Shown here one piece after another: positions 7,410 to 39,736 of a stretch of 49,797 nt of DNA. The stretch covers positions 1 through 49,797 of IMG/VR virus record IMGVR_UViG_3300009163_000052; one strand, 5' to 3'. Under the pieces are notes generated by a model. That model was not told where the DNA came from. It made no database searches and was given only the letters and a program-made list of their open reading frames with translations. Every line of letters begins with the position of its first letter. Within the stretch, counting starts at the first letter, position 1. The translations under genes were made by a program, and so were the position numbers. The DNA is from a virus.

Positions 7410-10388
7410 TTAGACTCTGCCAACAACCACTTCAATGACGCCAGCACCTTCGCCATGAGCTTCTAGTGCTTTACCAATTACGCTACCAATCTTTGGATTG
7501 GCTTCTGCACGGGCACTGCCGTTACCAGCTGATACCATCATGTCGCCCTTGGCAACTGGGCCAACGACCTTACACGGTACACGACCTTGTAGAGCAACGG
7601 CTGCTGTGTGTGCAGACTCTAAGTGACTGTTCATCAAGTAAGCTGGTGCTGTTGTTACAACGCCTGCTACCTTGGCACACATGTCGGTGTCACACAATGT
7701 AACTTCGGCTTCACCACCAAAGTGTAGAACTGTACCTGGCTCGTATTCAGCGTCTGCTGTGTACTTTTCTGCCAAGTCGGCGTATTGTGCTGTTGTTGCT
7801 TTGGCAAATACAGTGTTGAATGTTGAGCCCGAAGATCCAATGTTGCCAACACCAGTTGTGCCACCGTTAGTAATTGCAGTGGTGGCATTATTAATTGTCA
7901 AACCAGTCAATGTACCAACACTTGTAATGTTACCTTGAGCAGCAGTGGTTACTGTACCAGCAGTAGTGGCAGCACCTGACAATGCACCAGTGAATGTGGT
8001 TGCACTCACGTTACCAGCACTGATGTTACCAGTTACTGACAAGGAAGTCAATGTACCAACACTTGTAATGTTACCTTGAGCAGCAGTGGTTACTGTACCA
8101 GCTGTGGTTGCACTTGTGGCAGCACCCGACAATGCACCAGTGAATGTGGTAGCACTCACATTGCCTGCTGAGATGTTACCAGTTACTGACAAGGAAGTTA
8201 GTGTACCCACTGATGTGATATTGCCTTGAGCAGCAGTGGTTACAGTACCAGCTGTGGTTGCACTTGTGGCAGTGGTTGCACTTGTGGCAGTACCACTCAA
8301 TGCACCAGTGAATGTGGTTGCACTCACGTTACCAGCACTGATGTTACCAGTTACTGACAAGGAAGTTAGTGTACCCACTGATGTGATATTGCCTTGAGCA
8401 GCAGTGGTTACAGTACCAGCTGTTGTGGCAGCACCCGACAATGCACCAGTGAATGTGGTAGCACTCACATTGCCTGCTGAGATGTTACCAGTTACTGTCA
8501 GTGAAGTCAAAGTACCCACTGATGTGATGTTACCCTGTGCCGCTGTTGTCACAGTACCAGCAGTGGTTGCACTTGTGGCAGCACCTGACAATGCACCAGT
8601 GAATGTGGTAGCACTTACATTGCCTGCACTAATGTTACCTGTTACTGTTAGTGAAGTCAATGTACCAACACTTGTAATGTTACCTTGTGCGGCTGTTGTC
8701 ACAGTACCAGCAGTGGTTGCACTTGTGGCTGAACCATTTATGTTGGCATTCAACGTTTTGTTCATGTTCCAACGATCGTCGCCACTTGTATAAGTGAATG
8801 TTGCAGTGGCACCGGCTACTGTTAAACCAGCGCCGTTGGCTGCTGCCGCTGAGGCTGCGTCTTTGGCTAAAGTTAAGTTTAAATCGCCAATTTCTACCGT
8901 TGTACTGTTGACTGTTGTGGTTGTGCCTGTTACCTGTAGGTTACCTGCAATAACAACATTACCACCTGTACCGGCACTGCTTGGATCAATGGTAAGAGTA
9001 GTATGGCTACTGCTGATTGTGTCACCAGTGATGGTAAGATTACCAGCATTTAAAGTACCAACGTTGGCGTTACCTGTTACTGCTACTGCGGTCAATGTAC
9101 CAACACTAGTAATATTTCCTTGTGCGGCAGTGGTTACAGTACCAGCTGTGGTTGCACTTGTGGCTGCTCCTGACAATGCACCAGTGAATGTGGTAGCACT
9201 CACGTTACCAGCACTCACGTTACCTGTCACTGATAGTGCAGTTAGTGTACCCACTGATGTGATGTTACCTTGTGCCGCTGTTGTCACAGTACCAGCTGTA
9301 GTGGCAGCACCTGATAATGCACCAGTGAATGTGGTAGCACTCACGTTACCAGCACTCACGTTACCTGTTACAGTCAATGCAGTCAGTGTACCCACTGATG
9401 TGATGTTACCTTGAGCAGCAGTGGTTACTGTACCAGCTGTGGTTGCACTTGTTGCAGTGGTAGCACTTGTGGCAGTACCACTCAATGCACCAGTGAATGT
9501 GGTAGCACTCACATTGCCTGCTGAGATGTTACCAGTTACTGACAAGGAAGTTAGTGTACCAACACTTGTAATGTTACCTTGTGCCGCTGTTGTCACAGTA
9601 CCAGCTGTGGTTGCACTTGTTGCAGTGGTAGCACTTGTGGCAGTACCACTCAATGCACCAGTGAATGTGGTTGCACTTACATTGCCTGCTGAGATGTTAC
9701 CTGTTACGGTCAATGCAGTCAGTGTACCAACACTAGTAATATTGCCTTGAGCTGCTGTTGTTACTGTGCCAGCAGTGGTGGCAGCACCTGACAATGCACC
9801 AGTGAAGGTGGTAGCTGACACATTGCCAGCACTCACGTTACCTGTTACTGTCAATGCAGTCAGTGTACCCACTGATGTAATGTTGCCTTGTGCGGCAGTG
9901 GTTACAGTACCAGCTGTTGTGGCTGCGCCTGACAATGCACCAGTGAAGGTGGTAGCTGACACATTGCCAGCACTCACGTTACCTGTTACTGTCAATGCAG
10001 TCAGTGTACCAACACTAGTTAAACTTGACGCTGTAACGCCAGATCCAAGTGTGGTTCCGTTTAATACGCTTGTGCCAGCAATGGCATAACGATCGCCTGA
10101 GGCCAAGTTAACGCCATCGGCATCAACTGTGTGTTCTGTTACACCATCAATGATGATCCGAATGTTTGCGCCAGATCCGGTGTCTGTGATGCTTAGGCTA
10201 CTGTCGCCCAAACTAATCCCGTTTGCAATCACGTTACCAACAGTGATGTTGGCTCCTGCCGCTGTGTTCAGTACTGCATTACCTGTTAAAGTAATGTTAC
10301 CACTAGTGGTTACTGCACCGTCGTTTGCATCAACTTCAAAGTTACCTACCTTGATGCCGTGCTTAATATTAAAAAACTTATTAGCCAT
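7410..10388 (-). CDS. repeat-expanded tail fibre/adhesin with C-terminal chaperone-like domain
   Basis: A 992-residue fibre protein. The N-terminus (MANKFFNIKHGIKVGNFEV) is followed by about 11 full tandem units of 47, 50 or 56 residues (TGN[VI]SAGNVSATTFTGALSG ... GTVTTAAQGNITSVGTLT), six before and five after a non-repeat insert of roughly 110 residues, plus a half unit. Length differences come from a nested ATSATT slippage tract. The last 130 residues (TTAQYADLAEKYTADAEYEPG ... GRVPCKVVGPVAKGDMMVS ... GKALE) differ completely, are Cys-containing and resemble the C-terminal domains that fold and trim many phage fibres. The repeats, composition (A/G/S/T/N) and neighbours point to a long shaft ending in a folded tip. 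AGGA precedes the start. Confidence 0.8.
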   Translation of the reverse strand: MANKFFNIKHGIKVGNFEVDANDGAVTTSGNITLTGNAVLNTAAGANITVGNVIANGISLGDSSLSITDTGSGANIRIIIDGVTEHTVDADGVNLASGDRYAIAGTSVLNGTTLGSGVTASSLTSVGTLTALTVTGNVSAGNVSATTFTGALSGAATTAGTVTTAAQGNITSVGTLTALTVTGNVSAGNVSATTFTGALSGAATTAGTVTTAAQGNITSVGTLTALTVTGNISAGNVSATTFTGALSGTATSATTATSATTAGTVTTAAQGNITSVGTLTSLSVTGNISAGNVSATTFTGALSGTATSATTATSATTAGTVTTAAQGNITSVGTLTALTVTGNVSAGNVSATTFTGALSGAATTAGTVTTAAQGNITSVGTLTALSVTGNVSAGNVSATTFTGALSGAATSATTAGTVTTAAQGNITSVGTLTAVAVTGNANVGTLNAGNLTITGDTISSSHTTLTIDPSSAGTGGNVVIAGNLQVTGTTTTVNSTTVEIGDLNLTLAKDAASAAAANGAGLTVAGATATFTYTSGDDRWNMNKTLNANINGSATSATTAGTVTTAAQGNITSVGTLTSLTVTGNISAGNVSATTFTGALSGAATSATTAGTVTTAAQGNITSVGTLTSLTVTGNISAGNVSATTFTGALSGAATTAGTVTTAAQGNITSVGTLTSLSVTGNISAGNVSATTFTGALSGTATSATTATSATTAGTVTTAAQGNITSVGTLTSLSVTGNISAGNVSATTFTGALSGAATSATTAGTVTTAAQGNITSVGTLTSLSVTGNISAGNVSATTFTGALSGAATTAGTVTTAAQGNITSVGTLTGLTINNATTAITNGGTTGVGNIGSSGSTFNTVFAKATTAQYADLAEKYTADAEYEPGTVLHFGGEAEVTLCDTDMCAKVAGVVTTAPAYLMNSHLESAHTAAVALQGRVPCKVVGPVAKGDMMVSAGNGSARAEANPKIGSVIGKALEAHGEGAGVIEVVVGRV
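7900..10020 (-). repeat. tandem repeats of 141-168 bp inside the 992-residue fibre gene
   Basis: About 11 in-frame units encode TGN-SAGNVSATTFTGALSG ... AAQGNITSVGTLT. Unit lengths are 47, 50 or 56 codons, differing by insertion of SAT/ATSATT triplet blocks. An insert of about 330 bases near 8733-9070 splits the array. Identity is high enough for recombination or misassembly. Confidence 0.9.
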
Positions 10389-10448: not shown

Positions 10449-13400
10449 TTATACTGTGATGTAACTCTTACCAAGTTTCACCACATTAGCTGGTCCTACA
10501 CCAGTGTATTTTAGTACCACCGAACCACTGGTTAAATCAACACTTAAAGTACCAAGTTCGCTGCCAGTGAATATGTGATTAGACACTGTTAGATATGCTG
10601 TAGTACCATCATGAATTACCAGTGCTTCCATTGCATCAAATGCTGTTCCACCTTGATTGGTTACTTGAATAACATACTTTGCAGTACGATATGTAGCGGC
10701 AGTAAAGGTATCAATAGTAGTAATCGTTGTACCAACTGTGGCAGCAGTTTTACTGTGTACCAATGCACCACTGTAGGTGATGTTTCTTACTGCGTTGCCA
10801 ACTGCACCAAAATCCAAGGCGTTATCTACTGCTGGGACAAAATGTCCGTTAGTACCAACTGTCCAACGTGCGGCTGCTGATGCTGTACCTGAGTAAATTG
10901 TGATACCACTGTTGGTAGCTTCAACTAGGTCAAATCCATTTGGACTTTGCAGTGTGACGTTAACCGTTGATGTTGTAGCAATCTGACGAACTTCAATTAC
11001 GTCACCACTAGCTGGCGCTTCAGTGAATGTCAGTGTAACTCCGCTGATGCTGTAAGCAGTGGTTGGAATTTGCATAACACCGTTGACTGCAACAATCGCT
11101 GCCGCAGTAGTTAACTCTTGACCCAATGTAAACTCAACAGCTGAACCATCACCATTGAATGTTTCACTGGTAATAACAGTTGATGCTGAGCTGAAACTCT
11201 GCCATGCTGTACCATTGTAACCTTCATAGCTGTTTTGGGTGCTGTTGAAACGCATCATACCTGCAACTGGGCTGATTGGACGATCGCCGTCTGCACCAAT
11301 TGGAATAATGATACTGTTTGTACTGACAATGTGTAACTTGGCTTCTGTGTTTGGTGTGTTGGTGTTGATACCAATGTTATTTTGTCCACCATTTACATGG
11401 AACAAGCTAGCATCTGCACTGCCAGAAACAGTAAAGTCAATGTTGCTGCCTGCTGTGTTGACTGTTACTTCGCCACCAGTTTGAGCAGTAATATCGTTGC
11501 CGCTGATTAGTAGGTTGCCAACATAGATATTTCCAGCAACAGTTAAGTCACTGCCATCAAATGTAAAGTCAGCATCGTCAACCAGTTGACCACTTGCACC
11601 TGCGTATGTTACACGACCAGCAGTTAGTGTTGATACAAAAGTATTACCTAAGTTTGCATTGCCACTAGCAGATAAGTCAGTGAACGCACCAGTGCTGGCT
11701 GTTGTAGCACCAATTGCTGTGCTGTTGATGTTTCCACCAGTGATTTCAACATTGCTGGATACAAAGTTTGTAACAACTGTTGCGTTGGTACCGTTTGGTG
11801 TAATGTTGATGTTACCACCAACTGATTCCACATCATTGTTGCTGACTTTAATATTAGCAACTGTCAAGTTACCAGCAATGTTGGCAGATCCGTTAGCACT
11901 TAAGATGTTGGTAGTTGAATCCCATGTTAGGTCTTCGTCAACTGTTGCTTCGCCTGCTGAGCTAGTTACTAGTACACGACTACCTGTGAATCCACTTAGT
12001 ACAGCATTCTTGATGACAGTTTTACCTGTGCCGTCTGGTGTGATTTCAATGTTACCGTTTAAGTTGGTGCTGGACAATGTGCTGTCACGCAACTGTAGGT
12101 TACCAACATTGATGTTACCGTTGACTGTTACTGTGCTGTTGGCATCGTTGTAGGTGAAGTTAACTGGGTCAAATACTTGCCCGTTAATGCCTGCAACCAA
12201 TACAGAGTACTGTGATAGATCATCAACAATCAAGGATCCAACAGTAGCAGTAGAACTTACGTCAATTGTACCAGTGATGTTGGCCGAGCCACTAAGAGCC
12301 AATGCACTAGTTGAAACGTTGTAAGTCAAGTTAGCGTCTGATTCTAGTAGTCCACCAGTGTCAGCAAATACCATTTCTCCAGCAGTCAACGAAGTAAATG
12401 TACCAGTTGAGCCTTCAACATTAGCAAAAACGTGGCTTGCACCAAGGTTGCCTGTTAAGTTTGCTGTTGTACCGTAGAATCCAACAGCATTTGAGTCGCC
12501 ACTTGAGCTGATGTTACCAGCTGTGATATTGCCTGTAACGTTGGCAAAACCAGCTGTGATCAAATTACCACCTGTGATATTGCCTGTAACGTTGGCTACA
12601 CCAACTGTGGTCAAGTTGCCACCTTCAATGTTGCCAGTGGCAGTGATAAAGCCGCCTGTGCCCAAGTTGCCAACGTTGGCATTGTTGGTTACGCTTAGTG
12701 TGTTGGCATTAATTTGTCCTGATGCATTTGCAGTGACCACTGACAAGGTGTCAGTAGCGTTGTCGTATTCAAAGCCTGCTTCGTCTGTCAACTCACCGCT
12801 AGTTGTACTAAACACAACACGACCACTTGTCAGTGCCGAGTCTTTGATGTGTGCTGCCACTAGTGTACCGGTTACGTTGGCATTGCCAACACCTAGTTCT
12901 TTGCCTGCTGTGTCAAACGTGAACGCTGAGTCTTCAGCAACTTCGCCACTAGCACCACCAAATACAACATAACCTGTAGTAATTCCAAGATCCAGTGTAC
13001 CACTTAACTCTAGGTTACCAGTGATGTTTGCGTTGACCACTGTTAATGTGTCAGTGACAGTGTCGTATTCAAAGCCTGCATCGTCTGAGAGTAAACCAGC
13101 TGTGCCTGCAAACGTAACACGACCACTTGTCAATGCACTATCTGTGATGTTACCAGCAACCAACGAACCACTTACATTGGCATTGCCAACAGTTAGTACT
13201 TCACCTGCTGTGTCGAATACAAATGCTGCATCTTCAGCAAATTCGCCACTTGCACCACCAAATGCAACATAACCTATAGTAAGATCAAGATTCAGTGTAC
13301 CATCGACTTGCAAGTTGCCACTTAGGTTGGCATTGGTTACTGCTAATGTATCAGTGACAGTGTCGTATTCAAAGCCTAGATCATCTGTTAGTAGACCAGC

Positions 13401-16400
13401 TGTTGTAGAAAATACAACACGACCACTTGTTAATGCGCTGTCTGTGATGTTACCAGCAACAATAGAGCCACTTACATTGGCATTGCCAACGCCTAGTACC
13501 TTACCTGCTGTGTCGAATGTGAATGTTGAGTCTTCAGCAAATTCACCTGTGGCACCACCAAACTGTACGTAGCTGGCTGTTAAGCCAAGATCCAGTGTAC
13601 CACCAACTTCTAAGTTGCCAGTCACATTGGCATTGGCCACTGTTAATGTGTCAGTGACACTGTCGTATTCAAAGCCTGCTTCATCTGTCAGTTCGCCACC
13701 TGTTGTACTAAACACAACACGAGTACTGGTCAATGCACTATCTTTGATGTGAGCCGCTACCAATGTGCCGGTTACGTTGGCATTGCCAACGCCTAGTTCT
13801 TTACCTGCTGTATCGAATGTAAACGCTGAGTCTTCAGCAAATTCACCTGTGGCACCACCAAACTGTACATAACCAGTAGTTAAGCCAAGATCTAATGTAC
13901 CACCAACTTCTAAGTTGCCAGTGATATTTGCGTTGACTACAGTCAGTGTGTTAGTGGCAGTGTCAAATGTTAGGTCGGCATCGTCACTTAGTAGGCCGGC
14001 TGTTCCTGCAAAAGTAACACGACCACTTGTTAGTGCGCTGTCTGTGATATTACCAGCAACAATAGAACCACTTACGTTGGCATTGCCAACTGCAAGCTCT
14101 GATGTAGCTGAGTTGAAAGTAAACGCTGAGTCTTCAGCAATTTCACCACCTGCACCACCAAACTGTACGTATGTTGAAGTGAGTCCAAGATCCAATGTAC
14201 CACCAACTATTAAGTTGCCAGTTACATTGGCATTGGTTACTGTTAGCTCATTGGCAACAGTGTCAAATGTTAGGTCAGCATCATCACTTAATAGACCAGC
14301 TGCTCCTGCAAATGTAACACGACCACTTGTTAGTGCGCTGTCTGTGATGTTGGCTGCTGAAACTGTTCCAGATAGATTGGCATTACTTGTTGATAGTGTG
14401 CTTGTAGCAAGATCGTATGCCAATCCTTGGCTGTCAGACAACAGGCCATCTGTTCCTGCAAAAGTAACACGACCACTTGTCAACGCACTGGCTTTGATGT
14501 TGCCAGCTGTAAGTGTGCCAGTTACACTAGCATCACCAGCTGTGCTGATGTTGCCTGCGGCCAAGTTGCCTGTAACGTTGGCTGTCAGTGCAATTTCCAT
14601 TGTATTACCATTGAACACACTGGCATTGCTGTTGTTTGTAGCAACAATATTGTTACCAGAAACACTGTCTGTGGCAGTGATGTTACCAACGCTGGCATTT
14701 CCATCAATAGCAATTGAGTTGCCTTCAAAACCGGCAACAATAACGTTACCAAGTGTACCGCTGTACGCACCGGCTGCTACTGTAGCATCCTTGTAGAAGT
14801 ACAGTTTGTCATCGCTGTTGTCCATAATCAGCGCAGCCTGTTTGGCGCCGCCTGCTGAATGGTAGTAGTGTAGCTCTAGGCCTCGATCATAGCCGTCGTC
14901 TGTGGTTAATACAGCACTGTTGGCACCTGTACCAAGGTTGATAACTGGATCAACAATGGCCACTGTTGTTGTATCAACAATAGTTTGTACGCCGCCAATC
15001 TGCAGATTACCTGTGATCTGGACGTCACCGTTGGCTTTGATAATACCAGACAAAGAATCAAGATTTAAGTCGCCAGCAAGTGTTGTAATGGTATTACCGC
15101 TGATGTTGACATTGTCAACTGTGGCATTACCATAGAATGTTGTACCGGCAGCGTCGGCTGTAGAAACAACATTGCCATCAACTGTGGTTATAATGTTGCC
15201 TGTGCCTGAATCGGCTACCACAACACTGCTGTCACCTTGGGAGATTGTTGTAATTGCGCTGGTAAGTTGACTTTCTAGGTAAGCAACCGTAACCACGTCT
15301 TGCTGGCTGGTTGGATCAGCAACGTTACCAACAGTAAGACCGTTGAAGTTGATGTTACCATTGCCTGTTGTATCAAATTTTAAATCAGCGTCTAGAACTG
15401 AGTTGGTGATTGTGTCAGCGGTAATTGTAATGCTGGCAATGTTTGCATTGCTTGCAACTACTTCGCCGGTGACAGTCAATGCTGTGCCATTGAATGTCAA
15501 GTTAGCACTGTCAACCAGTGCACCGCTTGTTCCAGCCAGTACAACACGACCACTTGTCAGTGAAGATACTGTGGCATTGCCTGCTGTGATCAATCCAGTT
15601 ACATTGGCGTTACCTGCTGTGGACAATCCAGTTACATTGGCATTGCCTGCGTCAAGGTTACCAGACACATTGGCGTTGCCTGCTGTGAGCAAGCTAGTTA
15701 CGCTGGCATTGCCTGCGTCAAGGTTACCAGTTACGTTGGCATAGCTACCAACCAAGTTACCATTGAATATAGCAGCATTGCTGTTACCAGTTACTGTACT
15801 ATTGTTACCATCCAAGTTACCATTGAACGTGGCAGCATTGGCCGTTGTAGAAAATACTGCGTTATTGCCAGCAACTTCACCAAGTGTGGTCAAGTTACCA
15901 CCGCTTACGTTACCAGTTGCACTGACAATGCCACCTGTGATCAAGTTGCCACCATCCACGTTACCAGTTACGTTGGCATAGCTACCAACCAAGTTACCAT
16001 TGAAGATACTTGCATTACTGTTACCAGTAACAGTAGACGTTGTACCATCCAAGTTACCATTGAATGTTGTTGCATTGGCGTTGTTTGTGGCAATAATGTT
16101 ATTGCCGGCAACATCACCCACAGTAGTCAAGTTACCACCGCTTACATTTCCTGTAGCAGTAACAACGCCACCTGTGATCAAGTTGCCACCATCTACGTTA
16201 CCAGTTACATTGGCATAACTACCAACCAAATTACCATTGAAGATACTTGCATTTGAGTTGCCAGTAACAGTAGATGTTGTACCATCCAAGTTACCATTGA
16301 ATGTAACAGCATTGGCATTGTTTGTGGCAATAATGTTATTACCAGCAACATCACCCACAGTGGTCAAGTTACCACCGCTTACATTACCTGTAGCAGTAAC

Positions 16401-18578
16401 AACACCACCTGTGACTAAATTGCCACCATCTACGTTGCCAGTTACATTGGCATAGCTACCAACCAAGTTACCATTGAATATTGAAGCATTTGAGTTACCA
16501 GTAACAGTAGATGTTGTACCATCCAAGTTACCATTGAATGTAACAGCATTGGCGTTGTTTGTAGCAATAATGTTATTGCCAGCAACGTCACCAACTGTGG
16601 TCAAGTTACCACCACTTACATTACCAGTTGCAGTAACAACGCCACCAGTGATCAAGTTGCCACCATCTACGTTGCCGCTTACATTAGCGTAGGTACCAAC
16701 TAGGTTACCATTGAAAATACTTGCATTACTATTGCCAGTTACTGTTGAACTTGTACCATCTAGGTTGCCGTTAAAGGTAACAGCATTGGCGTTGTTTGTG
16801 GCAATGATATTGTTGCCAGTGACATCACCAACTGTGGTCAAGTTACCACCGCTTACGTTGCCTGTGGCATCAATAAGACCTGTTGTTGTCAAGTTACCAC
16901 CGCTCACGTTGCCAATGGCACTAACTGTACCGTTGGCACTAACGTTACCGCTGGCAGATAAGTCAACAACACCAAAAGTACCTGTTACATTCAGGTTACC
17001 AATGTTGGCTGTACCAGTGACATTAGCGTTGGTGGCTTCTAGGTTACCGTTAAAGGTAACAGCATTGGCACTGCCTGAACTAACAATGTATCCAGTGCTG
17101 ATGTTGCCAGCACTGATGTTGCCAGTGGCGCTGACGTCAAGTGTTGTACCGTCGTAGCCCAGGTTACCAGAAGTAACAAGACCCGATGTTGTTGTATAAA
17201 GAACTTTGTCTTGATTAATAGCAGTGACTTGTAAGTTGGCAGTGCTAACTTTGTCACCAGCTGACAAGTTGTTGGCTGATACATTGCCAGTGACAGTCAA
17301 CAGTGTGCCACTGAATGTCAAGTTTGCGCTGTCTACCAATGCGCCGGCACTGCCAGCCAATAGTACACGGTCTTGTGTTAAGTTTGATGCCTTAAGGTTA
17401 GCAGAACTGATGTCTCCGCTGGCTTCTAAGTCCACAGTACCAAGTTTAGTACCGTTGAATGTCAAGTTTGCGCTGTCAACTAATTCGCCGCTTGTGCTGG
17501 CGTAGGTAACACGTCCACTTGTTAGTGCTGTTACAAAAGCATTGCCAATGTTGGCTGTTGCAAAACTGGCATTGGCAGTTGTAGTAGCGCCAATGATTAC
17601 ATTGTCCATTGCGCCGCCAGTGATCTTAACGTTAGAAGCAACAACTTGACCTGTGCCATTTGGAGTCAGTTCAATGTTGCCGTTGGCATCAATACTGCCA
17701 ATTGTGTTATTGGCCAGGCTGATGTTGCCAATGTTGGCTGTACCGTTGAGTACCAGTGCATTGGTTGTGCCATTGAATGTAAATTCGCCGTCTGTGGTAA
17801 ACTTGCCGTTGGCATCAACAACAATAACGCTGTTGGCGGATAGACCAGTTACAGACAAGTTTGAAATCTTTGTTAGACCTGCGCCATTTGGACTGATGTT
17901 GATGTTGCCATCAGTGTCTGTGCTACTGAGTGTGTTGAGTGCTAGCTTTAGGTTGCCGCCTTGCACACTTTTGGCGTAGAAATCACCAGTGGCTGGATCA
18001 AAGGTCAAGAAAGTAGTGGTAGAGAGGTACCCGCCAGCACCAGTATAAGGAAGGCGATCAGCAGTCAAACTACTGACAGTTAAATTGGTGGCAATTACGT
18101 TGCCACTTGCGGCTGTTAGGTTTAAGTCGTCGCCAGTGCTGGTAACTGAGTTACCAGTCATAGACAAGTTGCCAGCTTTAAATTCGCCAGCTTTGAATGT
18201 AGTATAACCGCTGTTGTTGATGCTGCCTGTGCTGCCTGTTGTGGCAGTGGTGCTGAAAACTGCAAATTCGTTGTTTGCTTCGTTCCAAACAATTGCTTGC
18301 TTGATGGCGTTGCCACGATTGATCAAGAAACCAACGTCGTTGCTTGGGCTACCAGATAAGCCCGATGCAAGGAGAGTCAGCGGATCAGCAACAGTGGTGT
18401 TGGTACTGTCAACGACAGTGGTGTTTCCTGTGACAGTTAGGTTACCCTGAACAGTCAAGTTAGACGCATAAACTAGGTCTGATGAAAGTTGACCACCGGT
18501 GATGGTGGTATCTGCAATCTTTGCATAGGTGATCGCTTTGTCAGTGATCTGATTATTTTTAATTCTGGTAACAGCCAT
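10449..18578 (-). CDS. giant repeat-rich tail fibre protein (2709 residues)
   Basis: A fibre protein of 2709 residues, the largest gene here. It starts MAVTRIKNNQITDKAITYAKI, a common virion-attachment start in aquatic T4-like fibres. Residues 60-110 and about 1206-1263 carry the D-x-G-x-x-x-R-G ... W-x-E module. Two tandem arrays follow from N to C terminus: five 79-residue units (near 15.73-16.87 kb) and five and a half 100-residue units (near 12.7-14.4 kb). The C-terminus has three distinct modules: a GDRPISP-x-x-G-x-x-RFN stretch (about 2431), a VNGVMQIP ... ITFTE-like beta module (about 2498) and an AKYVIQV ... VIHDGTTAYL end module (2619-2709). It most likely forms a long trimeric shaft with a C-terminal receptor-contact region; that function is inference. 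Confidence 0.8.
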   Translation of the reverse strand: MAVTRIKNNQITDKAITYAKIADTTITGGQLSSDLVYASNLTVQGNLTVTGNTTVVDSTNTTVADPLTLLASGLSGSPSNDVGFLINRGNAIKQAIVWNEANNEFAVFSTTATTGSTGSINNSGYTTFKAGEFKAGNLSMTGNSVTSTGDDLNLTAASGNVIATNLTVSSLTADRLPYTGAGGYLSTTTFLTFDPATGDFYAKSVQGGNLKLALNTLSSTDTDGNINISPNGAGLTKISNLSVTGLSANSVIVVDANGKFTTDGEFTFNGTTNALVLNGTANIGNISLANNTIGSIDANGNIELTPNGTGQVVASNVKITGGAMDNVIIGATTTANASFATANIGNAFVTALTSGRVTYASTSGELVDSANLTFNGTKLGTVDLEASGDISSANLKASNLTQDRVLLAGSAGALVDSANLTFSGTLLTVTGNVSANNLSAGDKVSTANLQVTAINQDKVLYTTTSGLVTSGNLGYDGTTLDVSATGNISAGNISTGYIVSSGSANAVTFNGNLEATNANVTGTANIGNLNVTGTFGVVDLSASGNVSANGTVSAIGNVSGGNLTTTGLIDATGNVSGGNLTTVGDVTGNNIIATNNANAVTFNGNLDGTSSTVTGNSNASIFNGNLVGTYANVSGNVDGGNLITGGVVTATGNVSGGNLTTVGDVAGNNIIATNNANAVTFNGNLDGTTSTVTGNSNASIFNGNLVGSYANVTGNVDGGNLVTGGVVTATGNVSGGNLTTVGDVAGNNIIATNNANAVTFNGNLDGTTSTVTGNSNASIFNGNLVGSYANVTGNVDGGNLITGGVVTATGNVSGGNLTTVGDVAGNNIIATNNANATTFNGNLDGTTSTVTGNSNASIFNGNLVGSYANVTGNVDGGNLITGGIVSATGNVSGGNLTTLGEVAGNNAVFSTTANAATFNGNLDGNNSTVTGNSNAAIFNGNLVGSYANVTGNLDAGNASVTSLLTAGNANVSGNLDAGNANVTGLSTAGNANVTGLITAGNATVSSLTSGRVVLAGTSGALVDSANLTFNGTALTVTGEVVASNANIASITITADTITNSVLDADLKFDTTGNGNINFNGLTVGNVADPTSQQDVVTVAYLESQLTSAITTISQGDSSVVVADSGTGNIITTVDGNVVSTADAAGTTFYGNATVDNVNISGNTITTLAGDLNLDSLSGIIKANGDVQITGNLQIGGVQTIVDTTTVAIVDPVINLGTGANSAVLTTDDGYDRGLELHYYHSAGGAKQAALIMDNSDDKLYFYKDATVAAGAYSGTLGNVIVAGFEGNSIAIDGNASVGNITATDSVSGNNIVATNNSNASVFNGNTMEIALTANVTGNLAAGNISTAGDASVTGTLTAGNIKASALTSGRVTFAGTDGLLSDSQGLAYDLATSTLSTSNANLSGTVSAANITDSALTSGRVTFAGAAGLLSDDADLTFDTVANELTVTNANVTGNLIVGGTLDLGLTSTYVQFGGAGGEIAEDSAFTFNSATSELAVGNANVSGSIVAGNITDSALTSGRVTFAGTAGLLSDDADLTFDTATNTLTVVNANITGNLEVGGTLDLGLTTGYVQFGGATGEFAEDSAFTFDTAGKELGVGNANVTGTLVAAHIKDSALTSTRVVFSTTGGELTDEAGFEYDSVTDTLTVANANVTGNLEVGGTLDLGLTASYVQFGGATGEFAEDSTFTFDTAGKVLGVGNANVSGSIVAGNITDSALTSGRVVFSTTAGLLTDDLGFEYDTVTDTLAVTNANLSGNLQVDGTLNLDLTIGYVAFGGASGEFAEDAAFVFDTAGEVLTVGNANVSGSLVAGNITDSALTSGRVTFAGTAGLLSDDAGFEYDTVTDTLTVVNANITGNLELSGTLDLGITTGYVVFGGASGEVAEDSAFTFDTAGKELGVGNANVTGTLVAAHIKDSALTSGRVVFSTTSGELTDEAGFEYDNATDTLSVVTANASGQINANTLSVTNNANVGNLGTGGFITATGNIEGGNLTTVGVANVTGNITGGNLITAGFANVTGNITAGNISSSGDSNAVGFYGTTANLTGNLGASHVFANVEGSTGTFTSLTAGEMVFADTGGLLESDANLTYNVSTSALALSGSANITGTIDVSSTATVGSLIVDDLSQYSVLVAGINGQVFDPVNFTYNDANSTVTVNGNINVGNLQLRDSTLSSTNLNGNIEITPDGTGKTVIKNAVLSGFTGSRVLVTSSAGEATVDEDLTWDSTTNILSANGSANIAGNLTVANIKVSNNDVESVGGNINITPNGTNATVVTNFVSSNVEITGGNINSTAIGATTASTGAFTDLSASGNANLGNTFVSTLTAGRVTYAGASGQLVDDADFTFDGSDLTVAGNIYVGNLLISGNDITAQTGGEVTVNTAGSNIDFTVSGSADASLFHVNGGQNNIGINTNTPNTEAKLHIVSTNSIIIPIGADGDRPISPVAGMMRFNSTQNSYEGYNGTAWQSFSSASTVITSETFNGDGSAVEFTLGQELTTAAAIVAVNGVMQIPTTAYSISGVTLTFTEAPASGDVIEVRQIATTSTVNVTLQSPNGFDLVEATNSGITIYSGTASAAARWTVGTNGHFVPAVDNALDFGAVGNAVRNITYSGALVHSKTAATVGTTITTIDTFTAATYRTAKYVIQVTNQGGTAFDAMEALVIHDGTTAYLTVSNHIFTGSELGTLSVDLTSGSVVLKYTGVGPANVVKLGKSYITV
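12700..14390 (-). repeat. exact 300-bp tandem repeats in the giant fibre gene
   Basis: Five full units and one partial. The same coding landmark (Y-V-x-F-GG) recurs at about 12961, 13261, 13561, 13861 and 14161, exactly 300 bases apart. The 100-residue unit runs GNANVSGSIVAGNITDSALT ... SDDADLTFDT ... GGTLDLGLTT ... AEDSAFTFDTAGK. Codons have diverged more than residues, suggesting selection on the protein unit. Confidence 0.9.
15730..16870 (-). repeat. 237-bp tandem repeats in the giant fibre gene
   Basis: Five units of 79 codons encoding TGNVSGGNLTTVGDVAGNN ... FNGNLDGTTSTVTGNSNASI ... GNVDGGNLITGG. The landmark FNGNLVG recurs every 237 bases (about 15758, 15995, 16232, 16469, 16706). DNA identity is high, more so than in the 300-bp array, so this array looks younger. 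Confidence 0.9.
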
Positions 18579-32963: not shown

Positions 32964-35900
32964 TTAATTTACAGCGCGATGTATTTTCGTGCTAACATCA
33001 ACATTCTTCTTCATTTGGTTGACCATTTCTGACAGCATGTCAGTCATTTCTTTGTTAGATCCCATGCTTTTTGGCAGTTCTTTGAGTGTGCTGTTCAAGC
33101 TGTCTAATGTCTTGCTCAACACCAGTGCTGGATCTGCGGCTTTGCCTGCACCCGAGGCTGCTGGGTCAGCGGGCATTGAAATTTGTGATGCAGGGTCTTT
33201 GGCACCGGACGGAAGTCCTGCTTTACCAAACATGTCGTTGACAAACTGCGATGCATTGCCGCCCATCATGCTGGACAATGCTTTGCCAAAATCCTTGTCC
33301 AGCATCTTGCCTGCGTTTGCATTTGGAGCAAAGCTCTTGCCTAGAGTAGACTGTGCTTTTTGCAGTCTTTCAGCAACATAAGGTCCCATTACCTGTGACA
33401 GTTTTGCCATGCCTTCTGGATCTGTGGGTACCACAATTTCTTTGCCGTGTAGCACAACTGGATAGCCGCTGTCTGGACCTTCAAACATGCCGCCTTCTTT
33501 GGCCATTAGTGAGCCACCTTCGTGCTTGGATGCACTGAAGTGCATGGCATCCTTGCGACTCTTCCAGGCGCCGCCCCAACCCAGTCCCATAGCAGATGCT
33601 GTGCCCTGAATGCCTGCCGGCATGTCTGTGACTAGCTCGCTTTCACTCAAGGGATTAGTAGCAGGGTTAATGTCAATGGCGCCACCCTTGGCGTGTACAC
33701 TCTTGACACCTGGGCGTCCACGAACGTCACGATCAACATAGCCGCCAAGGCTTTGAATTGGGTAACCAATGCCATCCAGATAGTCAATTAAACGCTGGAA
33801 CGCAGGCTGTGCATCAGCGGCAACTGCTGTACTCTTGCCACTCTTGCTTCTAATTGTTGCCAACTGAGGCTTGCTACCTCCACCGCCTTGTGCTTGTTCG
33901 TCACCTGCGCCTGGGGGAGGAGGAGTTTGCCCACCACCGCCCGACGTCATACTTGCACCTACACTACCTGCGGCAGCACCACCTGCGGCAGCCGCTTTGG
34001 CGGTGGCTGCCGGCATTGCATTGCCTTGTGTGCCAAATGTAGAGCCAGCAAACCCAGCCTGGGCAGCAGCCATTCGCTCATCTCGAGACTTTTGTCGTAG
34101 TTCTGCTTCTTTTTGTGCTACTTCTTCATCTTTGGCAATTTCTTCTTTACTACGAATTAGTCCTGCAAATCGTGCCGCATCACCAAAAGCACTGTCGCTG
34201 ATAAACTTTTCAATTATCTTTGGTATTCTTGCAAAGAAGTCGCCTATGTTTTCTAACCCATTCATAAGAGCAGTCCAGCCAACTTTAAATCCTTTCCAAA
34301 TTGGGTCGAGCGTGTTTAGAATATTTGAAACAGTAACCCCGATAACTTTTATTTGGTCAGTGAATGCTCCCCAAATCTGCTTCATGCCTTCACCGATAGT
34401 GCTTAGGTCCCCGGTTAAGATACCTTTAACAACTTTAACCAATCCGCCTAGCAGTTCAACAAAAGGTACAAAGCTGTCTATCAGTAGGTTAGCAATGGGC
34501 TTGACCACTGGCATAATAATGTCTAGCACAGTCTTTACAACTTTTTCAACAATGCCGTAGAAAGCCATAAACACATCAGCCAGGTCGTTGATGATAGGAC
34601 CAATCAACGGTCCTGCTACACGGATAGTGGCTGCAATACGTTCAAACAGTGGTTGTAGATATTCTACAAAAATTTCGTTGATGTCTGCTAGAATTTCTTT
34701 GCCAAATGCAATGGACTTAGTACCAATGCCTTTGAAGTCAATGCCTTCCATGATATCTTTAAAGAAGTCCCTAGCTGTCACAAACGCCAGTTTGCCTGAT
34801 TCTACCAGCCCGCCGCCTAGGGTTTTAAGTCCAGGGCCAAGTTCAGTTAACGCAGTGCTAAACATTTCTTTACTGTTAGAAAATATACCTTCAAAGTTAA
34901 TGCCAAAGCTCTTGAGTGTCTTGTTTAAATCAAAGTTTTTCAAGGTATCAACAATAGCACCCATGTCAATACCCATGTCTTTGAGGTTGTCAGATACTAC
35001 TTGTCCTGCGCTCTGTAGTTGTCCTCCAACTTTTTTAGCATTGCCGTCAAGATCACCAAACAATGCGCCAAAGTTAAGGCCTGATATAAAGTTAACAAAC
35101 TTAGTCAATCCACCTGCAATAAATGTAATCGCAGGTGTAATAAACTTAACCAATGGCTGGATAACTTGATTCATTAATACATCTTTGAGATTACGCATTG
35201 TTGAATCAAAGTCGTCTAGGCCACCTTTAACATCATCACGAGCACCTTGTTCTGCACGAGCAGCCGCTTGGTCTTCTGCTAATTTTTCTTCATGGAATTT
35301 GCCGTCTTTATCCATGTACTTGTAAACACCTTTTGCAGAATCAGTTAGCATGTTACCAAGTGTGTTACCTAACCCAGGAAGTCCAGCGGCGCCGGCATAG
35401 ATGGCAGTCTCGTTGTCCTTGGCTGCTTTAGCCAAGGCTGCTGAACCTTTTCGACTATTACTGTCAAGTGTTTTACCATAGTCTTCAGTTTTAACACCAA
35501 CATCCTGGGCTTTGTCAACGTTGTCTTTCATTGCACTAATAAACCCAGGCGCGGCTGCTTCAAGAGCTCTCTGTTCATCTGTTAGTGCTGGCATACCCAT
35601 TGCTAAACGTTTAACTGCGTTTGCACCAGCATCGCCAAACTCGCTTTGAGCACGAGCCATAGCTTTGTTGAGTTTTTCTTTTTCGTTTGCATCCATCTGG
35701 CTTAGTTTCAGCTGGAAGGCTGCGTCTTGTGTTTTCTTAGCTAGTGCATCTGCTTGTGCTTTGTTTGAAACACCTGTGAGTTTAGCAGTAACGTCAAATT
35801 CTTTTGTTAACGAAACTGCACTTTTAGCCATGTCTGCCATGGATAAATTGTTGACTCTGGCACCCTGAGCCTGTAGAGCCATCATGCCAGGCAATTCATC

Positions 35901-36773
35901 GTTGACTTGCTTTAGGCTAATGCCCATGCCTTGCAATTCTGCGCCGTAGCCTGTGCGGATTGTCTTACTTAAATTAGCAAACTGTGTGGCACCCTGTGTC
36001 ATTGTGCCGCCAAACTTGGCAATATTATCTTTGTTTTCTGTGATAATACCTGTAAACTCTTTGAGGCTTAGCCCAGTAGAAGTAGCCGCTGCCTGCATTT
36101 GCATGAGGTTGTTGTTGAAACTCATGCCCGACTTTGATAGTTCGAACTGTGTTTCTCTTAATTCTTCAAACTTTGCAAACACCGCACTAATAATGCCAAT
36201 GCCCATGCTGAGGGCACCGCCAAACAAAGGAATCGCTTTGGCTGCATCACCAACAGCTCCTGTAAACCCACTGATCGTAGCTGGAGAATCTCCGTAGATC
36301 TGGCCAGCTAAGTCTGCACCCAGCGACAGTACACCGTCAGCAAATCCACTGATTATTTTGGCAGCAGAGCCAACACCACTGGCTAGAGTGCCAATGCCGC
36401 CGGCCAATAAACCAACAGCACCGTTGGCAAAACCCAGTGTGGCCCCTAGTCCGTAGGCAACTTTGCCCATACCTGCCAGTGCAGTGTTTGCTAGGCTTGA
36501 TTTTTTGGCAGCATCTTTTAATTCATCACCAAACTCGCCGGCTGCGCCTGCGGCACTGCCCATGGCAGCATCAGCGGCTTTTGCACCCTTGGTGTCCGGT
36601 GCTGGCGCTGTTTTGGTTTTGTCTTTGCCACCCTTGCCACCGCCAGACCCAATTTGTTTCTTCATCCCCAGCAAGATGTCAATGATCTCGCGTAGGCTGG
36701 TTTCCGTGGCCGCATTGACTAACTCTGCGCCATTTAGGTCAACACCTTGGGTTTTGATTGTTACTGATGCCAT
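32964..36773 (-). CDS. tail tape-measure protein with embedded M15-type peptidase
   Basis: A long protein of 1269 residues spanning the tail tube. Helical/hydrophobic stretches near residues 100-200 and 540-800 (e.g. PLVKFITPAITFIAGGLTKFVNF) are typical of tape measures. Near the C-terminus a zinc-peptidase signature is complete: SVHAKGGAIDIN with His1027 and Asp1034, and DAMHF with His1078, matching the H-x6-D ... H ligands of M15 peptidases (D-Ala-D-Ala or L-Ala-D-Glu type). Next come KEGGMFEGPDSGYPVVLHG and KEIVVP, often found in phage tape measures. It lies beside the gp26-type genes at 36.8-38.6 kb, divergently transcribed. The peptidase is predicted to help the tail cross peptidoglycan. 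Confidence 0.85.
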   Translation of the reverse strand: MASVTIKTQGVDLNGAELVNAATETSLREIIDILLGMKKQIGSGGGKGGKDKTKTAPAPDTKGAKAADAAMGSAAGAAGEFGDELKDAAKKSSLANTALAGMGKVAYGLGATLGFANGAVGLLAGGIGTLASGVGSAAKIISGFADGVLSLGADLAGQIYGDSPATISGFTGAVGDAAKAIPLFGGALSMGIGIISAVFAKFEELRETQFELSKSGMSFNNNLMQMQAAATSTGLSLKEFTGIITENKDNIAKFGGTMTQGATQFANLSKTIRTGYGAELQGMGISLKQVNDELPGMMALQAQGARVNNLSMADMAKSAVSLTKEFDVTAKLTGVSNKAQADALAKKTQDAAFQLKLSQMDANEKEKLNKAMARAQSEFGDAGANAVKRLAMGMPALTDEQRALEAAAPGFISAMKDNVDKAQDVGVKTEDYGKTLDSNSRKGSAALAKAAKDNETAIYAGAAGLPGLGNTLGNMLTDSAKGVYKYMDKDGKFHEEKLAEDQAAARAEQGARDDVKGGLDDFDSTMRNLKDVLMNQVIQPLVKFITPAITFIAGGLTKFVNFISGLNFGALFGDLDGNAKKVGGQLQSAGQVVSDNLKDMGIDMGAIVDTLKNFDLNKTLKSFGINFEGIFSNSKEMFSTALTELGPGLKTLGGGLVESGKLAFVTARDFFKDIMEGIDFKGIGTKSIAFGKEILADINEIFVEYLQPLFERIAATIRVAGPLIGPIINDLADVFMAFYGIVEKVVKTVLDIIMPVVKPIANLLIDSFVPFVELLGGLVKVVKGILTGDLSTIGEGMKQIWGAFTDQIKVIGVTVSNILNTLDPIWKGFKVGWTALMNGLENIGDFFARIPKIIEKFISDSAFGDAARFAGLIRSKEEIAKDEEVAQKEAELRQKSRDERMAAAQAGFAGSTFGTQGNAMPAATAKAAAAGGAAAGSVGASMTSGGGGQTPPPPGAGDEQAQGGGGSKPQLATIRSKSGKSTAVAADAQPAFQRLIDYLDGIGYPIQSLGGYVDRDVRGRPGVKSVHAKGGAIDINPATNPLSESELVTDMPAGIQGTASAMGLGWGGAWKSRKDAMHFSASKHEGGSLMAKEGGMFEGPDSGYPVVLHGKEIVVPTDPEGMAKLSQVMGPYVAERLQKAQSTLGKSFAPNANAGKMLDKDFGKALSSMMGGNASQFVNDMFGKAGLPSGAKDPASQISMPADPAASGAGKAADPALVLSKTLDSLNSTLKELPKSMGSNKEMTDMLSEMVNQMKKNVDVSTKIHRAVN

Positions 36774-36797
36774 TTAGTTTTCGCCATTATATATGCA

Positions 36798-36805
36798 GAT
36801 AAATA
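36798..36805 (+). promoter_or_regulatory. late-promoter-like octamer GATAAATA (to gp26-type operon)
   Basis: GCAGATAAATATCTAC, 33 bases before the first gp26-type gene. It lies upstream of, and reads into, the minus-strand octamer at 36818-36825, so the two promoters face each other. Confidence 0.5.
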
Positions 36806-36817
36806 TCTACGCTACAT

Positions 36818-36825
36818 ATATTTAT
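36818..36825 (-). promoter_or_regulatory. late-promoter-like octamer ATAAATAT (to tape measure)
   Basis: On the minus strand this reads CCATAAATATATG, 45 bases upstream of the tape-measure ATG. It faces the plus-strand octamer at 36798-36805, so transcripts from the two would cross. Confidence 0.45.
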
Positions 36826-36837
36826 GGAGACAAAAAT

Positions 36838-37716
36838 ATGGCTGATACCAATCCACTAAACAGTTTTTTTCGAAAAAGCAAATTTAACATCGATCTGCCC
36901 AGTCGCGGACGATGGTACCCAAAAACCGCACTGGCACCCACAGTAGTCAACGGTTCAGTTGCGGTATTCCCAATGACTGCTGCTGATGAAGCCAAGTTTA
37001 AAATTGGAGATGCTACCTTAACAGGCGCCGGCATTTTTGATCTTGTTCGCAGTTGTATTCCAGACATTCGCCAGCCCGAACTGGCACCAATGGCTGACCT
37101 AGATGCAATACTGCTGGCTATTCGTAGAGCCAGCTATGGCGATAACATGAAGTTTAACGTCAAGGTGCCCAACACATCGTTGATGAGAGAAATTACTCTT
37201 AACCTGTCTACCATGGCTTCGGAGAGCTTTGGCAGCGAAGCAGACTGGGACGACACCTTGGAAATCACAGATGAAGACACAGGCAAAGTATTAACTGTAA
37301 AAGTTAAACCTATTAACTTAAAGACCTTGTTTGGACACAGTAAAACACTGGTACGAGTACAGCAGATGTCTGTTAAGATGGCTGAAGCAGACGACATTGC
37401 CGATGATGCCAAGCTAGAGTCCTTGACTGAAAACATTCAAAATCTAAGCCAGGTAAACATCACCATGGTTGCAGACAGCATCGAAAGTCTCGAAACAGAA
37501 GATTTCAGCACACGCAATCCTGCAGATGTACGCAACTTGTTGGGACAAATTGATGTGGCCTACTTCAACGAGATGCAGAAGCACATTGACAATCAACGCA
37601 AGAAGATTGGCATGCAGGACACAGTGATTACCAGTACACCAGAAGAAATTGAAGCTGGTGCTCCAGAGTCATGGGTGGCAGAGATCAACTTTACCACTGC
37701 TGAATTCTTCAAATAA
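36838..37716 (+). CDS. gp26: gp26-type baseplate/tail assembly protein, first paralogue
   Basis: A 292-residue protein of the T4 gp26-like baseplate family. The start at 36838 is chosen because GGAG lies 8 bases upstream and the protein then begins MADTNPLNSFFRKSKFNIDLPS, lining up with MSDNPLKAYFRRPEVYTQLP of the second copy. Both share V-F/Y-PMTAADE, a SCIP segment and a D-x-DA-L-x-A-x-R-x-AS helix. This first copy has no Cys pairs, unlike the second; its C-terminus is VAEINFTTAEFFK, comparable with the FSLDYGSFF ending of the second. The genes are 12 bases apart. Confidence 0.7.
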   Translation: MADTNPLNSFFRKSKFNIDLPSRGRWYPKTALAPTVVNGSVAVFPMTAADEAKFKIGDATLTGAGIFDLVRSCIPDIRQPELAPMADLDAILLAIRRASYGDNMKFNVKVPNTSLMREITLNLSTMASESFGSEADWDDTLEITDEDTGKVLTVKVKPINLKTLFGHSKTLVRVQQMSVKMAEADDIADDAKLESLTENIQNLSQVNITMVADSIESLETEDFSTRNPADVRNLLGQIDVAYFNEMQKHIDNQRKKIGMQDTVITSTPEEIEAGAPESWVAEINFTTAEFFK

Positions 37717-37728
37717 AGGCGGTTTACA

Positions 37729-38553
37729 ATGAGCGACAATCCACTAAAGGCCTACTTTCGTAGACCAGAAGTCTATACACAACTACCCGGTGGCGGCGCT
37801 TTTTGGCCAGAGGGCACCATTGAGATTCCAGTCAGCGGAGAACTAGCAGTGTACCCTATGACTGCCGCAGATGAAATCAGTCTACGCACACCAGATGCAT
37901 TGATGAACGGACATGCCATTGTTAGCCTGCTGGAAAGTTGTATTCCCAGCATCAAGGACGCTTGGCAAACACCCTTGTCTGACATTGATGCACTGTTGAT
38001 TGCATCACGCATTGCCAGTGTAGGTGCTGACCTAGAGCTCAGTACCAAATGCCCCAACTGCGATCACAGCAATGAATTTATTGTGGACCTGCGTACTCGA
38101 CTAGATTTGATTCAACCTGGTTCATGGCATGAGCCTGTTGAAATTCGTGATCTTACATTTCACTTTAGACCCTTGACCTTCAAGCAAAGCAACGATTTAA
38201 ACAATCGTATCTATGCCGCACAACGCACAATGCAACAGATACAAGGCATTGAAGATGAAGATCAAAAAGAACAAGTGAACAAGAGCATCCTGGACAACGT
38301 CTCACAGATCAACTCAGACACATTGATTTGTTCTATCTCTGCCATTGAAGTAGCCGGCAACACTGTGCGTGATCCTGATCACATACGTGAGTTCATTGAC
38401 AACTGCGATCACAAGTTATCCTCTGCCATCAAGAAGGCCTTTGATGATCTACAGAAAAGCACCAAAGCTGAAGATGTTCACTTGGAATGTGAGGAATGCA
38501 GTTACAAGTTCAAAGTTCCGTTCTCACTGGATTACGGAAGTTTTTTCGTCTAA
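37729..38553 (+). CDS. gp26: gp26-type baseplate/tail chaperone, zinc-binding paralogue
   Basis: A 274-residue paralogue of the preceding gene. Two CxxC pairs, C108/C111 (CPNC) and C254/C257 (CEEC), form a probable zinc site absent in the first copy. The end of the gene reads Gly-Ser-Phe-Phe-Val-stop over GGAAGT TTT TTC GTC TAA and contains the slippery heptamer T TTT TTC at 38541-38547. A -1 shift there would replace the last residue and stop by a 77-residue extension (38547-38777). Position next to the tape measure and this layout recall the lambda G/GT tail chaperones. The usual family name is baseplate hub gp26; which role applies here is open. Confidence 0.8.
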   Translation: MSDNPLKAYFRRPEVYTQLPGGGAFWPEGTIEIPVSGELAVYPMTAADEISLRTPDALMNGHAIVSLLESCIPSIKDAWQTPLSDIDALLIASRIASVGADLELSTKCPNCDHSNEFIVDLRTRLDLIQPGSWHEPVEIRDLTFHFRPLTFKQSNDLNNRIYAAQRTMQQIQGIEDEDQKEQVNKSILDNVSQINSDTLICSISAIEVAGNTVRDPDHIREFIDNCDHKLSSAIKKAFDDLQKSTKAEDVHLECEECSYKFKVPFSLDYGSFFV

Positions 38554-38590
38554 GGCTCTTGAACCTGGACGCCGATAGAGTCCAAGAGCT
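38541..38590 (+). promoter_or_regulatory. candidate -1 programmed frameshift signal
   Basis: Heptamer T TTT TTC (38541-38547) in the X XXY YYZ register of the zinc-binding gp26-type gene, a 6-base spacer (38548-38553, which includes the zero-frame stop TAA), then a stem: GGCTCTTG (38554-38561) pairs with CAAGAGCT (38583-38590) over 8 bp including one G-U. Loop 21 bases. This is the standard slippery site + spacer + stimulatory stem arrangement. Confidence 0.6.
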
Positions 38591-38777
38591 GTTAAAGACC
38601 ATGGAAAAAGAAGTGGCGAATATCAAAAGTGATCTGCTCAAGATGACTTGGTACATGCGTGGTGGACTCAGCTACGAAGAAGCTATGAACCTCAGTCAAA
38701 GCGAAAGAAGTATTGTTGGTGACATCATCAAAGAGAATTTAGAAACAACTAAAAAATCAAGACTTCCTTTTTTCTAA
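38547..38777 (+). CDS. -1 frame extension, tail-chaperone-like C-terminal part
   Basis: Open frame -1 to the zinc-binding gp26-type gene. Read after a shift at 38541-38547 it gives RLRLLNLDADRVQELLKTM, then KMTWYMRGGLSYEEAMNLSQ and a KENLETTKK tail ending LPFF, about 77 residues. An aromatic W-Y followed by a helix and a charged helix is usual in tail-assembly chaperone partners. The same frame is open back to an ATG at 38496, wholly inside the upstream gene; an independent start could be ATG 38601 (59 residues), but its Shine-Dalgarno is weak. I therefore favour expression as a fusion, with independent translation as the alternative. Confidence 0.6.
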   Translation, partial: RLRLLNLDADRVQELLKTMEKEVANIKSDLLKMTWYMRGGLSYEEAMNLSQSERSIVGDIIKENLETTKKSRLPFF

Positions 38778-38801
38778 GCAACTTTTATTACTGTCCTTCT
38801 A

Positions 38802-38820
38802 AGACTTACTGCGTAAGTCT
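38802..38820. other. perfect 8-bp hairpin AGACTTAC/GTAAGTCT
   Basis: Inverted repeat with loop TGC (GCA on the minus strand), just after the stop of the frameshift extension. It could belong to the plus-strand transcript end together with 38821-38852, or to the candidate minus-strand RNA. Confidence 0.6.
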
Positions 38821-38852
38821 GTTTCTTTCGCTTACGCTCAGAAACTTTTTTT
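38821..38852 (+). terminator. probable factor-independent terminator of the gp26-type operon
   Basis: GTTTCT/AGAAAC stem (38821-38826 with 38840-38845) with a 14-base loop region, followed by seven T (38846-38852), 44 bases after the operon stop. The stem is short; the adjoining 8-bp hairpin 38802-38820 may add stability. Confidence 0.5.
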
Positions 38853-39223
38853 CTATCTTTAACTATAACGCTTGTGCGATAGTTTCATCTAGATTCAGTC
38901 ACAATTCACCCGTTGCCGGGCAAATCATGACAAGAGCTTCATCTGAGTTCTTTTATCACACTGTGTTAAATGAGATTGCTGTTACAGCACGGAAGCGGTT
39001 AGCCGGTACTCCCTACTCAAGATTCGATCCAACGGATGCTATGTAATGCCCTAACAAGCGAACTTTACATAACCCTAGGTTGCTTTTTCTCAGAGCCTAG
39101 ATCTTTTGACACCTTAGGTTAGTGTCTTTCCCTGCAACACCCAAGCGTCTGACGGCACAGCACAACCTGTACAACCTCAATGGGAGTCGAGCAGCCTCGA
39201 CCAAACAACGTTGCTATGATTAA

Positions 39224-39736
39224 TTACTTGCAGAGGTCTTTGACGACGTCTGCGTTTAGTTCAAAAAATGTATCAAAGTCCATGAAGATCCATGAGCCTT
39301 GTTTAACAGTTTCGTACTGTACTGACTTTTCTATTTTGATTTGTGGGAGATGTTTGACTTCAAATGCTACAAAGGTGCCTTTGCGATTAAACTTCATGAA
39401 CAGTAGATTAAAGTCTCCAGGATCTGCAACGTCCATGCATTGCTCAATCCATGATTCTAAAATTTTAACTTGTCCTTGAAATAACTGATGAAACGGAAAG
39501 TCTTTATATGATTTACATTCGGCATTTAACTTTGGGAAACTTTGTCCTGGAACTATGTCGCCCTTGAAGTTGCGAATTTGGCCTTCGTGGAGAAATTGTT
39601 TACGAGCCTGGTTTTTGCCACCCACATAAGCACCCGAACCTGGAGCTCGGATAAACTTTTCGCCGTAGAGATTGGTTAAAAAGTCAGCAACCTGACGTTC
39701 GTAACTGTTTCCTTTGGCTTTACTGGGACTGGGCAT
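39224..39736 (-). CDS. PD-(D/E)XK nuclease, Holliday-junction-resolvase-like
   Basis: A 170-residue nuclease fold of the Hjc/VRR-like kind. Likely catalytic residues: Glu13 (GNSYERQVADFL), Asp60 (NFKGDIV), Glu73 and Lys75 (NAECKSYKDF). APGSGAYVGGKNQ and FHQLFQGQVK are also typical of this group. It may resolve recombination junctions or trim DNA during packaging, complementing gp46/gp47 upstream. T4 uses endonuclease VII (gp49) for that job; none is recognised here. No strong Shine-Dalgarno is visible, but MPSPSKAKGN is the expected family start. It lies 78 bases downstream of the radical SAM gene. Confidence 0.75.
   Translation of the reverse strand: MPSPSKAKGNSYERQVADFLTNLYGEKFIRAPGSGAYVGGKNQARKQFLHEGQIRNFKGDIVPGQSFPKLNAECKSYKDFPFHQLFQGQVKILESWIEQCMDVADPGDFNLLFMKFNRKGTFVAFEVKHLPQIKIEKSVQYETVKQGSWIFMDFDTFFELNADVVKDLCK

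Follow-up and report, generated by a model that had tools for sequence, protein, structure and literature searches.

What does a phage make from a gene that ends on a run of thymines and is overlapped by a second open frame one base back? This question is raised by a gp26-family gene in the IMG/VR virus record IMGVR_UViG_3300009163_000052, whose 49,797 bases (hereafter the window, meaning the whole stretch analyzed) carry a gene set of the T4-like jumbo-phage type. The gene occupies 37729-38553 on the plus strand and encodes, in its zero frame, a predicted product of 274 residues. Close to its end stands the slippery heptamer T_TTT_TTC (38541-38547), where the zero-frame codons AGT TTT TTC GTC TAA place it in the -1 register. 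It is followed on the same strand by a 6-nucleotide spacer (38548-38553) containing the zero-frame stop TAA (38551-38553), by a stem between a 5' arm GGCTCTTG (38554-38561) and a 3' arm CAAGAGCT (38583-38590), and by an open -1 frame of 76 codons with its stop at 38775-38777 (38547-38777). An earlier reading of the locus, made from the letters alone (the sequence-only reading), had described the heptamer in the correct register, the spacer with its stop, an 8-bp stem and a -1 frame of 77 codons, and all of these were found as described, the 77th codon being the stop. It had further proposed that -1 frameshifting at this gp26-type gene produces equivalents of the lambda proteins G and GT, which the comparison of homologous loci supports well: programmed -1 ribosomal frameshifting very probably yields two tail assembly chaperones here, one short (TAC-N) and one long (TAC-NC).

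The evidence that carries this proposal comes from relatives of the second frame. The IMG/VR database was scanned with a query made up solely of the -1 peptide, which excludes the heptamer, and 512 relatives were obtained; in the best 80 of these, TTTTTTC stood directly upstream of the -1 part in 80 of 80. These 80, together with gp26-based matches and 12 cultured phages, make up 116 loci, every one of which has a heptamer at the equivalent place (114 TTTTTTC and 2 TTTTTTT); the cultured jumbo phages among them include RaK2, 121Q, GAP32, CBB, Munch, PA5oct, Atu_ph07 and XacN1. Homologues that had lost the slippery site, which the sequence-only reading had named as a possible refutation, were not found in this set. 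In 91 distinct sequences, none of the 6,366 codons read in the -1 frame is a stop, whereas the other frames contain 608 and 506 stops, the -1 part maintains a length of 70-80 residues, and the zero-frame stop falls 1 or 4 codons past the heptamer in nearly all loci, with a maximum of 11. At the codon level, the two slippery codons rank first and second in uniformity among 36 conserved degenerate columns compared across 67 lineages (TTT in 67/67, TTC in 65/67), the next best column having a dominant-codon fraction of 0.84 and the median over columns being 0.50; no other synonymous sites in the gp26-type gene are as constrained. The codon preceding the two ends in T without exception. Two features of a programmed -1 frameshift site, an X_XXY_YYZ heptamer in register and a conserved -1 coding frame, thus occur in the family, and judged by these alignments the combination of heptamer and open -1 frame is far beyond chance. 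The loci in which TTTTTTT replaces TTTTTTC are those of XacN1 (L121) and RAS14 (L123).

Downstream of the heptamer, the next 53 nucleotides of the window fold at -17.4 kcal/mol (z -3.1), and in most lineages the onset of the stem is located 6-7 nucleotides past the heptamer. The arm lies at +6 to +16, typically as GCCTCCTG or GGCTCTTG, and pairs with a partner at a lineage-dependent distance; duplexes at the arm offset average -10.5 kcal/mol, versus approximately -5.5 elsewhere. RNAalifold found no common structure on the ungapped alignment because the 3' arm moves, and a per-lineage duplex test was therefore used in its place, in which the 5' arm (+6 to +19) was kept fixed and the downstream codons were resampled synonymously in each of 69 lineages. 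Arm pairing exceeded the synonymous shuffles at p <= 0.05 in 27 of the 69, giving a Fisher combined p of ~1e-19, which serves as a guide rather than an exact probability since the lineages are related. Compensated arms were most striking in XacN1, Atu_ph07 and two further loci (L017 and L091), and strong hairpins were also observed at the equivalent downstream position in the cyanophages P-SSM2 and S-PM2. From these pairings, the family is predicted to have a stimulatory structure whose 5' arm stands at +6/+7, inside the 5-9 nucleotide range usual for such sites, strong in most lineages and not in all. What comparison establishes is the heptamer, a -1 frame maintained as coding sequence and, for most lineages, the predicted stem.

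The identity of the zero-frame product was addressed through profile analysis, which assigned it to PF12322 (E 3e-15, 56.9 bits, for a curated cut-off of 24.5) and to phrog_150, annotated as 'baseplate hub' (E 5e-17). In T4, gp26 consists of the PF12322 domain alone (residues 1-206 of 208) and gp51 of the same domain (1-201) followed by ~48 additional residues. The profile alignment between the window family and the T4/cyanophage family (2e-15) ends at the FF encoded by the slippery site, and the alignment to the T4 proteins stops where the gp51 extension starts; on these profile matches, the short form is homologous to T4 gp26/gp51. The -1 domain and the gp51 extension have a common junction and a (Y/L)S..E...M...ER-like motif, but the profile match between them is weak. 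Additionally, phrog_150 splits in P-SSM2, S-PM2 and HTVC008M, with positions as far as 234 falling in the gp26 frame and later ones in another frame, and in P-SSM2 and S-PM2 TTTTTTC precedes its C-terminal part, of the T4 gp51 type, which is found in the -1 frame. KVP40, too, combines TTTTTTC with a -1 extension, the run at this point in HTVC008M is T8, and Vi01 has a plausible C-terminal domain in the -1 frame, but the TTTTTTC site was not found there. No slippery site was found in T4 and RB49, whose genes 26 and 51 are separate.

The N domain was modeled with AlphaFold2 (AF2) at a predicted local distance difference test score (pLDDT) of 92, and its matches in BFVD were other gp26-type proteins. 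The AF2 model of the -1 domain (pLDDT 90) consists of helices at 9-36, 43-47 and 51-71 and gave a weak match to PDB structures; a sequence search of the PDB returned nothing significant. By profile, the -1 domain of the window matches its RaK2-type counterpart at 1.8e-8. In the gp26-type protein (37729-38547), two CxxC pairs, C108/C111 and C254/C257, hardly vary, which suggests a putative zinc site.

The genomic neighborhood bears on what these products might do. The gene at 32964-36773 on the minus strand encodes 1269 residues and has, toward the C-terminus, an M15 peptidase (D-Ala-D-Ala carboxypeptidase) domain (E 2.6e-11); its location and the gene order, which match those in RaK2, PA5oct and CBB, make it the probable tape measure gene. 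A large gene adjoins the gp26-type gene in divergent orientation in the window and in most cultured relatives, and it is not adjacent in Atu_ph07; the divergent neighbor is the presumed tape measure gene in the window, RaK2, PA5oct and CBB. Each residue of the adjacent large protein corresponds to ~0.17 nm of tail both in CBB (123 nm, 722 residues) and in PA5oct (136 nm, 798 residues), and this protein would therefore fit a tape measure, as far as two phages can indicate. In lambda, gpG and a rare gpGT are reported to cover the tape measure protein and to bring in the subunit of the tail tube, and neither is retained in the virion (PMC5009743). By analogy, the products of the present locus are likely tail assembly chaperones of the lambda G/GT kind, one short and one long.

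Other explanations for the conserved second frame have to be weighed. It might be a separate small gene, translated by reinitiation or from an internal start codon, as the annotation of separate hypothetical proteins from internal starts in 121Q, GAP32, CBB, Munch and others would have it, and many loci do have an ATG within the -1 part, at its codon 14, 18 or 30. However, the conserved RxRLL at positions 1-5 of the -1 part precedes these internal starts, standing upstream of the first ATG in most loci, the start position varies, one sequence has no start whatsoever, and the invariant TTT TTC codons would be left unexplained. A start upstream of the heptamer fares no better: a -1-frame stop lies 9-141 nucleotides upstream of the heptamer in every locus, and 93 of the 116 lack any start codon from the last such stop to the heptamer (the window itself has an ATG at 38496), a result that also goes against the refuting case named by the sequence-only reading, a second frame that starts at a well-placed Shine-Dalgarno. 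We thus hold a separate gene to be very unlikely. Hardly any weight can be given to slippage of RNA polymerase on the T run, by which normal translation of a mixed mRNA would read the -1 frame. The homopolymeric nature of the run speaks for it, as do the T8 of HTVC008M and the T7 of XacN1 and RAS14, but polymerase slippage usually requires longer runs, and 114 of the 116 loci conserve exactly six T followed by C. In the 84 tabulated sequences no preceding T extends the run; moreover, the register of the heptamer and the stem 6-7 nucleotides behind it suit ribosomal slippage.

A further alternative accepts the frameshift and places both products in the virion as parts of the baseplate hub rather than among the chaperones. 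Genetic work reported T4 gp26 as a hub component (PMC3004832), and the RefSeq label of CBB gp250 is 'structural protein'; the review itself nonetheless counts both gp26 and gp51 among the chaperones of hub assembly (PMC3004832). In the mass spectrometry of the CBB virion, the adjacent large protein and tape measure candidate CBB_251 was detected with 29 peptides, whereas CBB_250 (gp26) and CBB_249 (the -1 frame) are not among the 55 listed virion proteins (PMC5259590), an absence expected for chaperones, which would not be present in virions, and suggestive only. In PA5oct, similarly, the neighboring genes carry a tag for electrospray ionization tandem mass spectrometry (ESI-MS/MS) and the gp26-type protein is untagged. 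Taken with these virion data, hub membership of both products appears improbable.

Under programmed -1 ribosomal frameshifting, most ribosomes would end at the TAA at 38551 and release the 274-residue candidate TAC-N, and a minority would slip back one base on T_TTT_TTC, with the P- and A-site tRNAs re-pairing on TTT TTT and the stem starting 6-7 nucleotides downstream assisting the slippage. Reading on in the -1 frame, the candidate TAC-C, would give a predicted TAC-NC fusion of ~349 residues bearing a small helical C-terminal domain. Following the lambda gpG/gpGT analogy, many short and few long copies would coat the tape measure protein, the extra C-terminal domain would recruit the tail tube subunit, and both forms would depart before the tail is completed. 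What we infer from these comparisons is that slippage takes place and how often, which partners are bound, and that the products act as chaperones.

Several observations count against this account. The frameshift products are here a prediction from gene sequences. The window stem (-13.3 kcal/mol), taken individually, does not differ significantly from synonymous shuffles (p 0.27), and ~20 of the 69 lineages have no strong stem partner in reach, so that, of the elements for which the sequence-only reading had sought conservation, the heptamer (116/116) and the open -1 frame stood and the strong stem did so in part. The profile match of the -1 domain to the C-terminus of T4 gp51 is weak (hhalign E 0.017), alongside the common junction and motif, and the N domain model gave no convincing match to a solved tail chaperone fold among PDB structures. 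Finally, the sequence-only reading had set the gene next to the tape measure: the presumed tape measure gene is adjacent indeed, but on the opposite strand, unlike in lambda.

The least expected addition to the locus is a second gp26-family copy in tandem (36793-37716, plus strand; PF12322, 1.1e-9), which has neither a heptamer nor a -1 extension and whose true start is probably the ATG at 36838. A homologue scan with this copy as query found nothing. A profile search over the loci detected extra gp26 copies in L001, L049/L054/L055/L057 and L104, and partly in L068; tandem copies thus occur in few relatives only, and the slippery site was present in none of the extra copies read. The tree requires at least two origins of the extra copy, and its branches are long. 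A tentative possibility, toward which we lean less than away from it, is that the extra copy has lost the slippery site and represents a natural intermediate from a one-gene frameshift system to the two-gene system of T4 (26 short, 51 long), in which case the extra copy would alter the short-to-long ratio and leave frameshift efficiency unchanged.

Elsewhere in the window, ~420 bases without a convincing gene (38780-39200) separate the -1 frame from a divergent open reading frame at 39224-39736, and a comparable gap was also observed behind the gp26-type gene in 121Q, GAP32, CBB and Munch. On the minus strand, 7410-10388 and 10449-18578 encode very repetitive large proteins of 992 and 2709 residues with many GNxTxxGTLTxLTVTGN-like units, which are probably tail fibre or surface proteins.

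On these results, the range of frameshift-made tail chaperones would take in the RaK2-like jumbo phages as well as hundreds of T4-like phages that are uncultured, and many database entries would be wrong in giving the -1 domain as a hypothetical gene of its own or in omitting it. Cultured relatives, such as the Escherichia coli phage 121Q, could provide tractable systems for tail length control in T4-like phages, and the range from frameshift gene, through frameshift gene plus extra copy, to two genes could offer a natural series for the loss of a recoding signal. The sequence-only reading had known of no description of such frameshifting for T4 gp26 genes, a claim of novelty that is not right, because T4-like tail assembly chaperone genes were reportedly identified in 2022 by Vladimirov, Gautam and Davidson (Virology 566:9-15). 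Their abstract reportedly describes frameshifting as retained by several groups of T4-like phages, with genes 26 and 51 serving in T4 itself. One passage of PRFect cites Vladimirov et al. for separate short and long genes, rather than frameshifting, in some T4-like phages, and a passage of PMC12846349 refers to them on poly-T signals for -1 frameshifting in the TAC-N genes that T4-like phages carry. A frameshift-made chaperone is therefore already published for other T4-like phages, and the present locus extends a known kind.

Compared with known systems, the locus shares with T4 genes 26 and 51 the same Pfam family, gp51 being the domain with a C-terminal extension from the equivalent position, and differs from T4 and RB49 in that these have two separate genes without a slippery site, with gene 25 downstream of T4 gene 26. 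Lambda G/GT likewise includes a rare longer form with a C-terminal domain (PMC5009743), to which the short and extended products here correspond at the sequence level; the two systems have no detectable sequence or fold match, their heptamers differ, and the presumed tape measure gene here is on the opposite strand. The E/E+E' genes of P2, also a contractile-tail phage, use -1 frameshifting at the T-rich heptamer TTTTTTG (PMC3091744), T6G as opposed to T6C here, and P2-like phages have no downstream hairpin (PMC3091744), whereas the predicted stem is conserved here in most lineages. The TAC locus of Vandenendeviridae and Andersonviridae (phage Adele) belongs to other phage families and has a predicted -1 frameshift at GTTTTT with a -1 frame open over all genomes (PMC12846349). 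The T4-like chaperones of Vladimirov et al. have a gp26-family TAC-N as in the window, and the TTTTTTC of P-SSM2, S-PM2 and KVP40 was re-derived here; what may set the present locus apart from them is the extra gp26 copy without a frameshift, which may be undescribed.
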